A stretch of 64,000 bases of DNA from Flavobacterium sp. Its GTDB lineage: Bacteria; Bacteroidota; Bacteroidia; Flavobacteriales; Flavobacteriaceae. Positions 59,443 to 63,882 of this stretch are shown piece by piece (position 1 is the first letter of the stretch; each line of letters begins with the position of its first letter). Position numbers and translations under genes: made by a program. The notes beneath the pieces were generated by a model that saw only the letters and a list, made by a program, of their open reading frames with translations, was not told the DNA's origin and searched no databases. The DNA lies in contig JAQSDU010000014.1 of the NCBI GenBank assembly GCA_029946065.1, positions 799,623 through 863,622 of the forward strand. The letters run 5' to 3'.

Positions 59443-59466
59443 TTCTTACCCCATTATTTTTCTTTG

Positions 59467-59516
59467 CGGCTTCGCGCCTTTGCGAGAGATTTTTTTCTTG
59501 CAAAGACGCGAAGCCG
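59467..59516. repeat. Intergenic palindrome, 20-nt arms with 18/20 pairing (cggcttcgcgcctttgcgag / cttgcaaagacgcgaagccg)
   Basis: Arms 59467-59486 and 59497-59516. Confidence 0.85.
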
Positions 59517-59685
59517 AATAGTTTTATACTAATTCCTTACATCTGAAAATTATATAACCTTTTCAGAAAATCCTATAAAATAAAATGCTACCCGACATAC
59601 TACATTTACTTTATAGCAACGGTATGCAAATGAGGCACATTGTTGTTTCATAAAAACAAAATGCATTAATCTAAACCTATCAATT

Positions 59686-59832
59686 ATGAATTACTATATG
59701 GATATGTTCAACAGCGAAATGGAAATGTTTAACGAAGATATTGACATCACAGGCCGCAAGATCGATATGTTTGAATCGGAAGTCAACATGTTCGGGTCTG
59801 ACAAAGAGCGATTTGAAGAAGAAAATAATTGA
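59686..59832 (+). CDS. 48-aa heptad-patterned small protein (not in supplied ORF track)
   Basis: Translated by hand: MNYYMDMFNSEMEMFNEDIDITGRKIDMFESEVNMFGSDKERFEEENN*; followed by a terminator at 59863-59887. Confidence 0.65.
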   Translation: MNYYMDMFNSEMEMFNEDIDITGRKIDMFESEVNMFGSDKERFEEENN

Positions 59833-59862
59833 GGATAACTACTGCCTATCCTTTATTAGAGA

Positions 59863-59887
59863 AGCCCGCTTGATTGCGGGTTTTTTT
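59863..59887 (+). terminator. Rho-independent terminator after 48-aa ORF
   Basis: cccgc-ttgatt-gcggg followed by T7. Confidence 0.85.
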
Positions 59888-59959
59888 ATGCTTATTAAAC
59901 AACCTAAAATTTATCATCTGTACTAAAAATAAGGAATACAACCCGCAACTGATAAAAAA

Positions 59960-59977
59960 ATACCTACAATTGGGGAT
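59960..59977 (+). promoter_or_regulatory. Candidate operator dyad ATACCTACAATTGGGGAT (copy 1), upstream of 60036 ORF
   Basis: Imperfect dyad; same motif, T-tract and spacing found at 62915-62932. Confidence 0.55.
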
Positions 59978-60035
59978 TTTTTTGTTACTTTAACTTTTCA
60001 CATTTGAAGTGTATAAACTTTAAAATTAGAATGTT

Positions 60036-60500
60036 ATGAATGATTTAACTTACACAGCAGAAAAAGTAAACTTTGACAGTAATGCCAAAACAATAACGGT
60101 TGGCCTGAAGATTCCGATTGAAGATTCTCAAAATCCTTATCAATTTTATCACACGTTTGATTTAAGCACTTCAATGTTTGGGATGCCGGTAAATGCAATC
60201 TTTTGCCATATAAAAAAAAGGGATGATATAGGCACCCGGCTGATGAGCACTACTTTTAATTACGATCTTACAATTGATATTTCAAGCCTTGATGGCAAAT
60301 TTGACTTTTCGCAAGACGAATGTCTTTTCATTCTTCATCATGATAATAAATTCCAAGTCAGTGATGTAGCGGCTATTGAGAAAGTAATAGGGAATTTGTA
60401 TGCAGCAGCCTCAAAAGATCCTTTTTCAATAGATATTGATCAAATAATAGACCCTAAACGTCTAATACCAAGAAGAGTTGGCGTAAGCATAGTAAAATAG
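60036..60500 (+). CDS. Hypothetical protein, 154 aa
   Basis: Intact ORF with promoter-like leader, directly upstream of the histidine kinase; no recognised family. Confidence 0.8.
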   Translation: MNDLTYTAEKVNFDSNAKTITVGLKIPIEDSQNPYQFYHTFDLSTSMFGMPVNAIFCHIKKRDDIGTRLMSTTFNYDLTIDISSLDGKFDFSQDECLFILHHDNKFQVSDVAAIEKVIGNLYAAASKDPFSIDIDQIIDPKRLIPRRVGVSIVK

Positions 60501-60503
60501 CCT

Positions 60504-62282
60504 TTGGAAAAACATATAAAAAAGCACTGCCCGTTCATTATTTTTATTTTTATAATAAACGGGCATGTTTTTGGGCAAAAAATAAACTTTGGAGCAGTCG
60601 AAGATCTTTTAAACACTGGAAAAAATTACAGTGCAATAAAACTTCTTGACCATTATGAACAATTAAAAAACTCTGAAGCAAACCTTGCAAAAATTTATTA
60701 TTACCACGCACTTGCACTAAGCAACGAAAGTGTTGATGACAAGGCTTTTCAGTATTATATCAATTCAAAAAAGAAATTTCTTGCAATCGACAGCCTTGAA
60801 GCAGCTATGAAAATTAATCTCGACATAGCCTCTTTGCTTAGCTCACAAAAAAATCAGATGAATATTGCTAAAACTTATGTACAAGAGTATCTTGATTTCG
60901 CAAAAAAAAACAATAATAGGTTACTTTTGGCAAAAGGCTACGAAAAATGGGGATCCTGTATTCTTGATGATCAACCCAGAGAAAGCCTTAATTTTTACAA
61001 GGCAGGAATAGCTGCAAACAATGCTTCAAAAAACAAGGCACTGTCACTTATCTTATATAACAATATTGGTGTCGTTTATAATGAAAAACTCCAAAATCCG
61101 GATTCTGCTTTATTTTACTATAAAAAAGCTGCCTTATTTATAGAAAACAGAAATCCGAATGATATTTGCAGTGATTTAATAAACCGCGCAGGATGTTATT
61201 ACTACAAAGCTGAATATGCAAAAGCCTTAGCGTTATTAAAAAAAGCAGACGCCATTAAACTGACAAAAAATATTAGCAATACAAAACTCATAATTTATAG
61301 TATTTTGTCATTGAATTATGAGGGAATAGGCGATTATAAGAATGCTTATCTAATGCTTTACGAATCAAACCAGATAAGCGACACCTTACTTATAGAAAAA
61401 CAAAATCTGAAAATTTCCGAACTGAACATATTATACAATACCCAAAAAAAAGAACTTGAAAACCTCGCATTAAAGAATAATATAAAAATCAAGAATATCT
61501 TCTTATACTCTGTTATCGGATTAATCATCATTTTGATACTTATTAGTATCCTAACTTATAAAAATCTCCAAAAAAAGAAAAAAATTGCCGAACAATCCGA
61601 ACTTATTCAAATACAAAAACTTGAAAAAACGCTTAGAGATCAGGAATTACACGAAATTGATGTGATGCTCGAAAGTCAAGAAAAAGAACGCCAACGCCTT
61701 GCCAATGAACTGCATGACAATTTGGGAAGCATGCTGGCCACATTGAAACTCAACTTTCAAAACCTTAAAAGCAAAGCCGAGCATGCTGAACGCGAAAATA
61801 AACTTTACGATAAAACCGATGAACTGATTGAAGAAGCGTATCAAAAAGTACGCAATATTTCACATCTAAAAAACCTTGGTGTCGTTGCCAGCGAAGGACT
61901 ACTAAGTTCCGTAAACAAAATGGCTTCGAAAATGAGCGTGCCGGAAAAACTGACTATAAACGTTATTCCGTTCGGGCTCACCGAAAGACTGGAAAATACG
62001 CTTGAAATTACGCTCTTCAGGATAATTCAGGAATTATGCACCAACATCATCAAGCATTCCGGAGCCAACGAAGTCAACATTTACCTTACCCAGCACAGCA
62101 CCGAAAATTTAAACATAATGATTGAAGACAACGGAAACGGCTTCGATCCGAAAACCCTGGCCGATACCGACGGAATAGGCCTCAAAAGCATTGAAAAGAA
62201 AGTAGAACAAATGGGCGGAAACTTTACGATAGACTCGATTTTATCAAAAGGCACGACCATAATCATCGACCTAAATTTATGA
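60504..62282 (+). CDS. TPR-containing sensor histidine kinase (HisKA_3/NarX-like; TTG start likely)
   Basis: Signal peptide, TPR-like repeats, TM (IFLYSVIGLIIILILISILTY), EKERQRLANELHDNLGSMLATLKLNF H-box, IEDNGNGFDPKTL...GIGLKSIEKKVEQMGG. Confidence 0.93.
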   Translation: MEKHIKKHCPFIIFIFIINGHVFGQKINFGAVEDLLNTGKNYSAIKLLDHYEQLKNSEANLAKIYYYHALALSNESVDDKAFQYYINSKKKFLAIDSLEAAMKINLDIASLLSSQKNQMNIAKTYVQEYLDFAKKNNNRLLLAKGYEKWGSCILDDQPRESLNFYKAGIAANNASKNKALSLILYNNIGVVYNEKLQNPDSALFYYKKAALFIENRNPNDICSDLINRAGCYYYKAEYAKALALLKKADAIKLTKNISNTKLIIYSILSLNYEGIGDYKNAYLMLYESNQISDTLLIEKQNLKISELNILYNTQKKELENLALKNNIKIKNIFLYSVIGLIIILILISILTYKNLQKKKKIAEQSELIQIQKLEKTLRDQELHEIDVMLESQEKERQRLANELHDNLGSMLATLKLNFQNLKSKAEHAERENKLYDKTDELIEEAYQKVRNISHLKNLGVVASEGLLSSVNKMASKMSVPEKLTINVIPFGLTERLENTLEITLFRIIQELCTNIIKHSGANEVNIYLTQHSTENLNIMIEDNGNGFDPKTLADTDGIGLKSIEKKVEQMGGNFTIDSILSKGTTIIIDLNL

Positions 62283-62890
62283 TTACGATTGTTATAGCAG
62301 AAGACCACCAGTCGTTGATAGACGGCATCAAATTATTGCTCGAGACCGAAGATGACATCAGTGTTATTGGTGAAGCCAATGATGGCGAAATGCTATTGGA
62401 AATCGTCAAAAACAAACAGCCACAAGTGGTTATCACAGATATCCGTATGCCAAAATGCGACGGCATCAGCGCTACAAGAAAAATTAAAAAGCAATTTCCG
62501 AACACCAAAGTTATTGCTTTCAGTATGTTTGACCAAAACGAAGCGGTAGCGCAGATGAAGGAAGCCGGTGCTTCGGGTTATATCATGAAAAACTCCTCGC
62601 TCAAGAAAGTTCTCGAAGCCATTCGCGCAGTGGCCAAGGGCCAAACTTTTTTTGATGATGCCATTGGCGCTAAAGACAACCTCACCAAAGAGCAAATCAT
62701 CCTGAGTACGCGCGAAAAGGAAATCCTGCGGCTCATTGGCGAAGGTAAAACCTCACAGGAAATTGCCGATCAGCTTTTTATTGGCAAAAGTACGGTGGAC
62801 ACCCATCGGAAAAATATCCTAAAAAAAATGAATATTTCCGGCAAAACAGATTTGATTCGGTTTGCAGTGGAACGGAAGTATGATTTTTAA
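62279..62890 (+). CDS. NarL/LuxR-family response regulator
   Basis: IVIAEDHQSLIDGIKLLL, ITDIRMPKCDG, C-terminal HTH LSTREKEILRLIGEGKTSQEIADQLFIGKSTVDTHRKNILKKMNI; ATGA overlap with kinase. Confidence 0.95.
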   Translation: MITIVIAEDHQSLIDGIKLLLETEDDISVIGEANDGEMLLEIVKNKQPQVVITDIRMPKCDGISATRKIKKQFPNTKVIAFSMFDQNEAVAQMKEAGASGYIMKNSSLKKVLEAIRAVAKGQTFFDDAIGAKDNLTKEQIILSTREKEILRLIGEGKTSQEIADQLFIGKSTVDTHRKNILKKMNISGKTDLIRFAVERKYDF

Positions 62891-62914
62891 GTAAAGTTTT
62901 GATTATCAATAAAA

Positions 62915-62932
62915 ATCCCCATTGTTGGTGAT
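62915..62932 (+). promoter_or_regulatory. Candidate operator dyad ATCCCCATTGTTGGTGAT (copy 2), upstream of 62990 ORF
   Basis: Same dyad architecture and distance to ATG as copy 1. Confidence 0.55.
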
Positions 62933-62989
62933 TTTTTTGTGGTTAAAAATGTTGAATTTTGTATTGTATAACCTTTTAAATTCAATATT

Positions 62990-63532
62990 ATGGATTCAAA
63001 ATTTATTTTTATGTTTGTATTGCCACTAGCTATCTTGGCTGCTGGCATCTGTCTTTCAATTTGGTCGGACATCCTTAAAGATGCCAGCACAAATCCATTA
63101 AAACCTTACAGTTTTGCTAATACACAACTGATGTGGTGGACACTCATTATCGTTTGTACATTTTGTTATGCCTATGGCTGTGGCAATTTTGAGATCCCTA
63201 AAATGTCCAATTCAAGTTTGATACTATTAGGCATAAGTTTAGGTACTACTACAGCTGCAAAAATCATTGATAATCGAGACGCTGCTACAGCAATTGTTAG
63301 GCACCAAGACACCAACAACGGGCGACACTTTTTTTCTAATATATTAAGTGATGGCAACGGTATCAGTGTGCACCGATTTCAAGCTTTTGTCTTTAATATC
63401 ATTTTTGGATGTATGTTCTTAAATGATTTTTTTCCCGACTGCAATTTTATCGAATTTAATCCTAACGAATTGGCTCTCATGGGTGTAAGTTCTGCAGCCT
63501 ATATAAGCTTAAAAGCCACTGAAAATAAATAA
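62990..63532 (+). CDS. Uncharacterised four-TM membrane protein with internal duplication
   Basis: Hydrophobic segments; YSFANTQLMWWTLIIVCTF...LLGISLGT and ISVHRFQAFVFNIIFGCMF...LALMGVSSAA halves. Confidence 0.85.
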   Translation: MDSKFIFMFVLPLAILAAGICLSIWSDILKDASTNPLKPYSFANTQLMWWTLIIVCTFCYAYGCGNFEIPKMSNSSLILLGISLGTTTAAKIIDNRDAATAIVRHQDTNNGRHFFSNILSDGNGISVHRFQAFVFNIIFGCMFLNDFFPDCNFIEFNPNELALMGVSSAAYISLKATENK

Positions 63533-63588
63533 TTCACACCCAGATGCCGAAAAGGGAAAGAGTAGGCGATTTTTAAAACTTAGAAATT

Positions 63589-63882
63589 ATGATAAATATT
63601 ACTACAACAGTTTTCGGAGGAATAGCTCCACTGCCAATCAAGGTTTCAATTGACAACCTTGACAACGATCATGATGTTAAATTCGCCCGAACAGCATCAT
63701 TTAACGAAAATTTCAATCTTCCTCCTGGTAGATACATGATTGTTATTTCGGGGATGAATCCAAAAGATGGAAGAACCGAAATGAGTGTAACTGGAGATTT
63801 TTCTGAAGGTCCTCTTCCGACACCAGACAGAACAACAGATAAGCCTTTCTATTCAAAATTATTCTATTGCGTAATAAGTTAG
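63589..63882 (+). CDS. Hypothetical small protein, predicted beta-rich
   Basis: Intact 97-aa ORF NITTTVFGGIAPLPIKVSIDNL...FNLPPGRYMIVISGMNPKDGRTEMSVTGDFSEGPLP. Confidence 0.7.
   Translation: MINITTTVFGGIAPLPIKVSIDNLDNDHDVKFARTASFNENFNLPPGRYMIVISGMNPKDGRTEMSVTGDFSEGPLPTPDRTTDKPFYSKLFYCVIS

Follow-up and report, generated by a model that had tools for sequence, protein, structure and literature searches.

Predicted paired operators of a NarL-type regulator flank its operon and precede a variable gene slot in Flavobacteriaceae

We analyzed a 64,000-nt window of a Flavobacterium sp. genome (GenBank assembly GCA_029946065.1, contig JAQSDU010000014.1, positions 799,623 to 863,622), in which two similar 18-bp dyads, here site 1 and site 2, flank an operon encoding a histidine kinase and a LuxR/NarL-type response regulator (Table 1). 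We consider it highly likely that both dyads are operators of this regulator (62279-62890), that its phosphorylated dimer probably activates both adjoining promoters, and that the genes behind site 2, hereafter cargo, have been replaced across Flavobacteriaceae. Comparison of orthologous loci showed that the sites keep their positions, co-occur with the regulator and are followed by a -7 box at a defined spacing, and that cargo is replaced between conserved flanks.

Both dyads were confirmed where a sequence-only reading of this DNA had placed them. Each is followed by a T7-G run, ending at 59984 for site 1 and 62939 for site 2, and they start 76 and 75 nt before the ATG codons at 60036 and 62990, respectively. 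Site 2 begins 24 nt past the stop codon of the regulator. The duplicated leader described in that reading was also recovered, with 72% identity across 72 nt, and ranks first among the direct repeats of the region. The claimed dyad symmetry is present at both places, albeit as imperfect palindromes; in the orthologous loci, the palindromes are near-perfect. The pattern shared by the two sites, CCNANNNTTGGNGATTTTTTTG, occurs without mismatch at only two places of the 3.83-Mb genome, namely site 1 and site 2, and has three matches within the window at up to three mismatches, compared with 0.99 expected. All genome-wide motif scans were pattern searches rather than scored position weight matrices. 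A match with one mismatch at C11:234523 was rejected as a third operator because it lacks a convincing -7 box or following gene. Thus, site 1 and site 2 are the sole convincing sites in this genome. Since site 1 precedes the regulator's own operon, this arrangement fits the small autoregulated regulon that had been proposed.

We sought orthologues of the regulator in 400 genomes of the genus, where 59 matched (our own genome included), and in GTDB contigs, which yielded approximately 60 Flavobacteriaceae loci (L046-L108). Sites were assigned by an alignment criterion in 64 loci, window included, resulting in 38 copies of site 1 in 37 loci and 32 copies of site 2 in 31 loci. Many orthologous loci have near-perfect palindromes of the form ATMCCYA-N4-TRGGKAT, followed by a T-run, upstream of the operon and just past the regulator. 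The site consensus is AAAAATCCCYATTnnTRGGGATTTTTTT, with AAtTTTG about 15 nt further on. The exact motif ATMCCYANNNNTRGGKATTTTTT was found in 52 of the 58 other Flavobacterium genomes that encode the regulator versus 22 of the 341 that do not (odds ratio 126, Fisher p 1.5e-40, kinship ignored). Because species are not independent, this p-value is indicative only; the contrast is nonetheless large, and a backwards control pattern gave 2 matches in 400 genomes. Rather than being scattered without orthologues, the hits follow the regulator and occupy two fixed positions beside it. This co-occurrence and the fixed flanking positions strongly support the earlier proposal that the dyads would be operators of the NarL/LuxR-type regulator lying between them.

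The conserved element between the dyad and the TGTATAA block of the leaders is a -7 box. Its TTTG (60003-60006 and 62958-62961 in the window) starts at columns 43-45 in 32 of 38 site-1 copies and 18 of 32 site-2 copies, compared with averages of 0 and 0.5 in control windows. These boxes match the Bacteroidetes sigma-A consensus TAnnTTTG, with the TA part often GA or CA, and the -33 position is occupied by the right half-site and the T-run. Flavobacterium psychrophilum promoters have the sigma-A -7 box TAnnTTTG at -12 to -5 (PMC9723704). Applied here, that placement and the TTTG spacing predict transcription starts near 60011 and 62966, putting the dyad centre near -42.5, a placement like that seen at promoters activated by NarL. 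The block TGTATAA[AC]CTTT[AT]AAATT is indeed shared by both leaders, as the sequence-only reading had noted. However, the predicted start precedes or coincides with it, so that it would be an A/T-rich 5' untranslated region rather than the control element it had been taken for.

The dyads also have the 7-2-7 layout of NarL sites, in that the family consensus TMCCYAN-NN-NTRGGKA lies inside the 18-bp dyad. NarL sites follow the consensus TACYYMT-NN-AKRRGTA. The heptamer TACYYMT is fitted by the ATACCCA and ATACCTA sites of some orthologues, and in part by the ATCCC sites and the window copies. In Escherichia coli, inverted 7-2-7 sites of NarL lie at -44.5 at ogt and just upstream of -35 at yeaR-yoaG (PMC7419079). 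The system shares with NarX/NarL a regulator with receiver and GerE domains, 7-bp inverted elements 2 bp apart, and a site that immediately precedes the -35/-33 region (PMC7419079). It differs in its consensus, its Bacteroidetes -7 box, its TPR sensor and its variable cargo targets, and we saw no link to nitrate.

Across 32 distinct sites, arm positions 3/16 and 6/13 co-vary (4 and 6 of 1000 shuffles were as high), and the two sites within one locus differ by 2.6 bases, compared with 4.0 when pairs are shuffled (none of 5000 shuffles was as low). Together, these results fit a shared DNA-binding dimer, and the window palindromes are very probably docking sites of the regulator encoded between them. 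Parts of this reading are inferred, namely that the regulator binds the DNA directly and activates instead of repressing, and what the signal and the role of the cargo would be. In the mechanism we envision, the TPR-sensor kinase would phosphorylate the regulator, and the phosphorylated dimer would bind each palindrome at about -42.5, beside the -33 region. Activation would most likely proceed via contact with RNA polymerase at a promoter having a -7 box and a poor -33 element. Site 1 heads the operon whose last gene encodes the regulator, which implies positive autoregulation of the 154-aa protein, kinase and regulator genes if the regulator binds there. Binding at site 2 would switch on the cargo operon of 180-, 97- and 372-aa genes. 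The control module and its sites would be kept across Flavobacteriaceae as the cargo is replaced.

Several observations weigh against this interpretation. The motif is present in 22 genomes that lack a regulator orthologue, six genomes with the regulator have no exact motif, distant orthologues (Tenacibaculum, Mesonia, Salegentibacter) are mostly without it, and some distal copies have no convincing promoter. The window dyads are themselves imperfect palindromes that agree only partly with the NarL heptamer. Our counts ignore phylogeny, and the -7 columns derive from related sequences. In addition, the A-tract, dyad and T-tract fold as an RNA hairpin with a U-run (-11.2 and -8.4 kcal/mol), and a protein bound at -42.5, next to the -33 region, could also obstruct RNA polymerase. 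This last point would suit a regulator that binds the dyads as a repressor, keeping operon and cargo off until phosphorylation alters binding. We judge repression unlikely, given that the half-site and T-run replace the -33 element, which suits an activator-dependent promoter, and that NarL activates from comparable positions (PMC7419079).

The predicted RNA fold raises a different alternative, namely that the dyads and T-runs are intrinsic terminators. In that case, the regulator mRNA would end at site 2, and transcripts entering from upstream would end at site 1. Arm covariation, taken alone, would equally fit an RNA hairpin, and the copies between convergent genes in L065, L066 and L069 have no -7 box at the usual place. 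However, the motif tracks regulator presence across genomes, a -7 box follows the dyad at fixed spacing, and a stronger terminator-like hairpin (59856-59892, -18.5 kcal/mol) already lies upstream of site 1. Where the next gene is co-directional, 28 of 39 loci have a site 2, compared with 5 of 19 where it is convergent (p = 0.0017). This argues against a mere terminator, since a terminator would be wanted in both orientations. We therefore regard termination as a quite improbable explanation of the dyads, although three of the five convergent exceptions have no -7 box and some copies may be terminators.

It is also conceivable that the dyads serve another regulator, or several paralogous LuxR-type regulators, and that the neighbouring regulator is a bystander. 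The genome has 16 GerE matches, the motif occurs in genomes without the orthologue, and a similarly organized paralogous locus (L155) contains a related palindrome, ATACCTCTTTTGGGGTAT, whose position relative to the -7 box differs. Nevertheless, presence of the orthologue predicts the motif, genomes without it mostly lack the motif despite numerous relatives of the regulator, and the sites flank this regulator gene at fixed positions. These contrasts make a bystander role very improbable, and operators of the neighbouring regulator remain our preferred reading.

Site 1 precedes a three-gene operon encoding a small protein (F2), the kinase and the regulator, and these three genes form the conserved core among orthologous loci. 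The sequence-only reading had described two genes flanking the kinase and regulator; the gene at 60036 is instead the first gene of their operon, and the second unit extends beyond the window end. Both regulator domains scored above cut-off (PF00072, Response_reg, E 2.4e-27; PF00196, GerE, E 4e-20), which assigns the protein to the NarL/FixJ type. F2 had no match in Pfam or NCBIfam. Its AlphaFold model is a confident beta-sandwich (predicted local distance difference test 90.6), but the best PDB match (E 0.066, template-modelling score 0.31) was unusable for assigning a function from the fold.

Porphyromonas gingivalis FimS/FimR is a second point of comparison. FimS has a periplasmic TPR sensor domain, the regulator activates a gene cluster, and the signal is described as unknown (PMC11053733). 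Like the present pair, it is a Bacteroidota two-component system with a TPR sensor. The kinase matches the NCBIfam FimS model with E 5e-17, but its 61.5 bits fall far below the equivalog cut-off of 600. FimS/FimR has other targets, and the accessible text describes neither a two-operator cassette nor exchangeable cargo (PMC11053733).

The genes behind site 2 vary by species, and most families were seen once or twice among the loci. When we compared closely related pairs (L059/L062, L060/L062 and L052/L085), kinase, regulator and operator were mostly 90-98% identical and cargo 21-45%, with identity resuming in the gene beyond. Several cargo genes of these pairs begin with a common signal peptide, after which their sequences part. 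At least nine gene neighbourhoods contain the core, usually one for each clade, as scored on automatic gene families, some of whose labels are rough (e.g., L077). This distribution implies that the core moved rarely and the cargo changed often. The second half of the predicted regulon is an exchangeable slot, which the sequence-only reading had not foreseen.

Cargo in the window had no match in Pfam or NCBIfam, and PADLOC did not match the 180-, 97- or 372-aa proteins; its only matches were in cargo of L076, L077 and L158. L076 encodes a ThsB-like TIR protein (PADLOC, E 7.5e-39). In L077, a patatin (Pfam E 5e-8) resembling those of cyclic-oligonucleotide-based antiphage signalling systems lies beside a TIGR02594 protein and matches a PADLOC phospholipase effector over its first 130 residues (E 2.5e-24). 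The cargo of L058 includes a radical-SAM gene, and that of L056 (Flavobacterium humi) encodes a possible precursor of 109 aa together with an APH-type kinase (E 4e-13) and a HopA1-type lyase (E 9e-36). In class V lanthipeptides such as cacaoidin and lexapeptide, an APH-type kinase and HopA1-type lyase pair dehydrates Ser/Thr (PMC9486802). The L056 cargo shares this enzyme pair (PMC9486802), with a putative product, and is one cargo type of many, absent from the window.

The cargo probably acts in antagonism or defence. We more tentatively propose, with belief and doubt nearly balanced and doubt slightly ahead, that the system is a portable cassette with two matched operators and an exchangeable effector slot. 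Weapon or defence genes would be swapped by recombination between constant flanks, placing immune-type effectors under two-component transcriptional control. A search of 72,556 plasmids at E 1e-40 did not recover the cassette, and a search of openly accessible literature did not turn up a description of it.

A DUF805b-like RNA element precedes the second cargo gene. Its score of 31.1 bits is below the RF02914 gathering score of 35.6, which five further copies in this genome exceed. DUF805b has about 10 copies in this genome, is found in 108 of 121 Flavobacterium genomes and, in sampled loci, always lies 20-29 nt before a start codon. We considered whether it marks regulator-controlled cargo. 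In our own genome, four of six DUF805b places adjoin a LuxR-type regulator. However, such a regulator was nearby in only 3 of 40 loci from other Flavobacterium genomes, a sample made up of strong matches. The rule was therefore rejected as general, and the element is a common leader.

Other loci of this genome have related content. At L158 (G000:C14:722000-734000), another LuxR-type kinase/regulator pair lies beside paralogues of the 97-aa (29%) and 372-aa (38%) proteins, in a cluster that also encodes ThsB-like TIR, TPR-S, GH19 chitinase-like and DUF5675 proteins. L155 (G000:C14:764000-777000) has a second operon of small protein, TPR kinase and LuxR regulator, which is oriented divergently to four DUF805b leaders and a gene for a ricin-type lectin; the intergenic palindrome of this locus is directly downstream of a TATATTTG box. 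At L155-L159 and at the sampled loci L167, L170, L173 and L176, DUF805b leaders precede small Cys-rich GG-motif peptides (MKNLKNLRNIEVLSKNEQKFIIGG...) resembling bacteriocin precursors. Upstream of site 1 in the window, a short open reading frame (59686-59832) encodes a 48-aa acidic Met/Phe-rich protein (MNYYMDMFNSEMEMFNEDIDITGRKIDMF...) and is followed by the strong hairpin noted above. An imperfect 26-nt inverted repeat around CTTTGCGGCTTCGCGCCTTTGCGAGA (59462-59521) follows a DUF2721 gene and had only chance-level Rfam matches.

Table 1. Predicted operators, promoters and genes of the system, in window positions unless indicated
Feature	Position	Strand	Remarks
Operator site 1, dyad ATACCTACAATTGGGGAT (predicted)	59960-59977	+	T-run to 59983; position kept in orthologues
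-7 box CACATTTG, operon promoter	59999-60006	+	predicted start ~60011; TTTG at column 44 in 25/38 site-1 copies
F2 protein, 154 aa	60036-60500	+	predicted beta-sandwich; homologues head operon elsewhere
TPR sensor histidine kinase (HisKA_3, HATPase_c), 592 aa, TTG start	60504-62282	+	
LuxR/NarL-type response regulator, 203 aa	62279-62890	+	Response_reg + GerE
Operator site 2, dyad ATCCCCATTGTTGGTGAT (predicted)	62915-62932	+	T-run to 62938; position kept in orthologues
-7 box GAATTTTG, cargo promoter	62954-62961	+	predicted start ~62966
Cargo gene 1, membrane protein, 180 aa	62990-63532	+	64% identical homologue in same slot of L087
DUF805b-like RNA leader (RF02914)	63537-63568	+	20 nt before next start codon; 31.1 bits, E 6e-6
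Cargo gene 2, 97-aa protein	63589-63882	+	paralogues beside another kinase/regulator pair
Cargo gene 3, secreted 372-aa protein	past window end, L031 5910-7028		signal-peptide-like start

Autoregulated NarL-type systems are ordinary, but a constant regulator and operator whose targets are replaced wholesale between close relatives are not. The operator motif offers a handle on candidate antagonism or defence genes without a recognisable family. For Bacteroidota, about whose activator-dependent promoters little is known, it also provides a testable pairing of a regulator with a site whose distance to the -7 box is defined. Should the cargo genes prove to be effectors, the stimulus of the TPR kinase would become a concrete question of what triggers their deployment by Flavobacterium.

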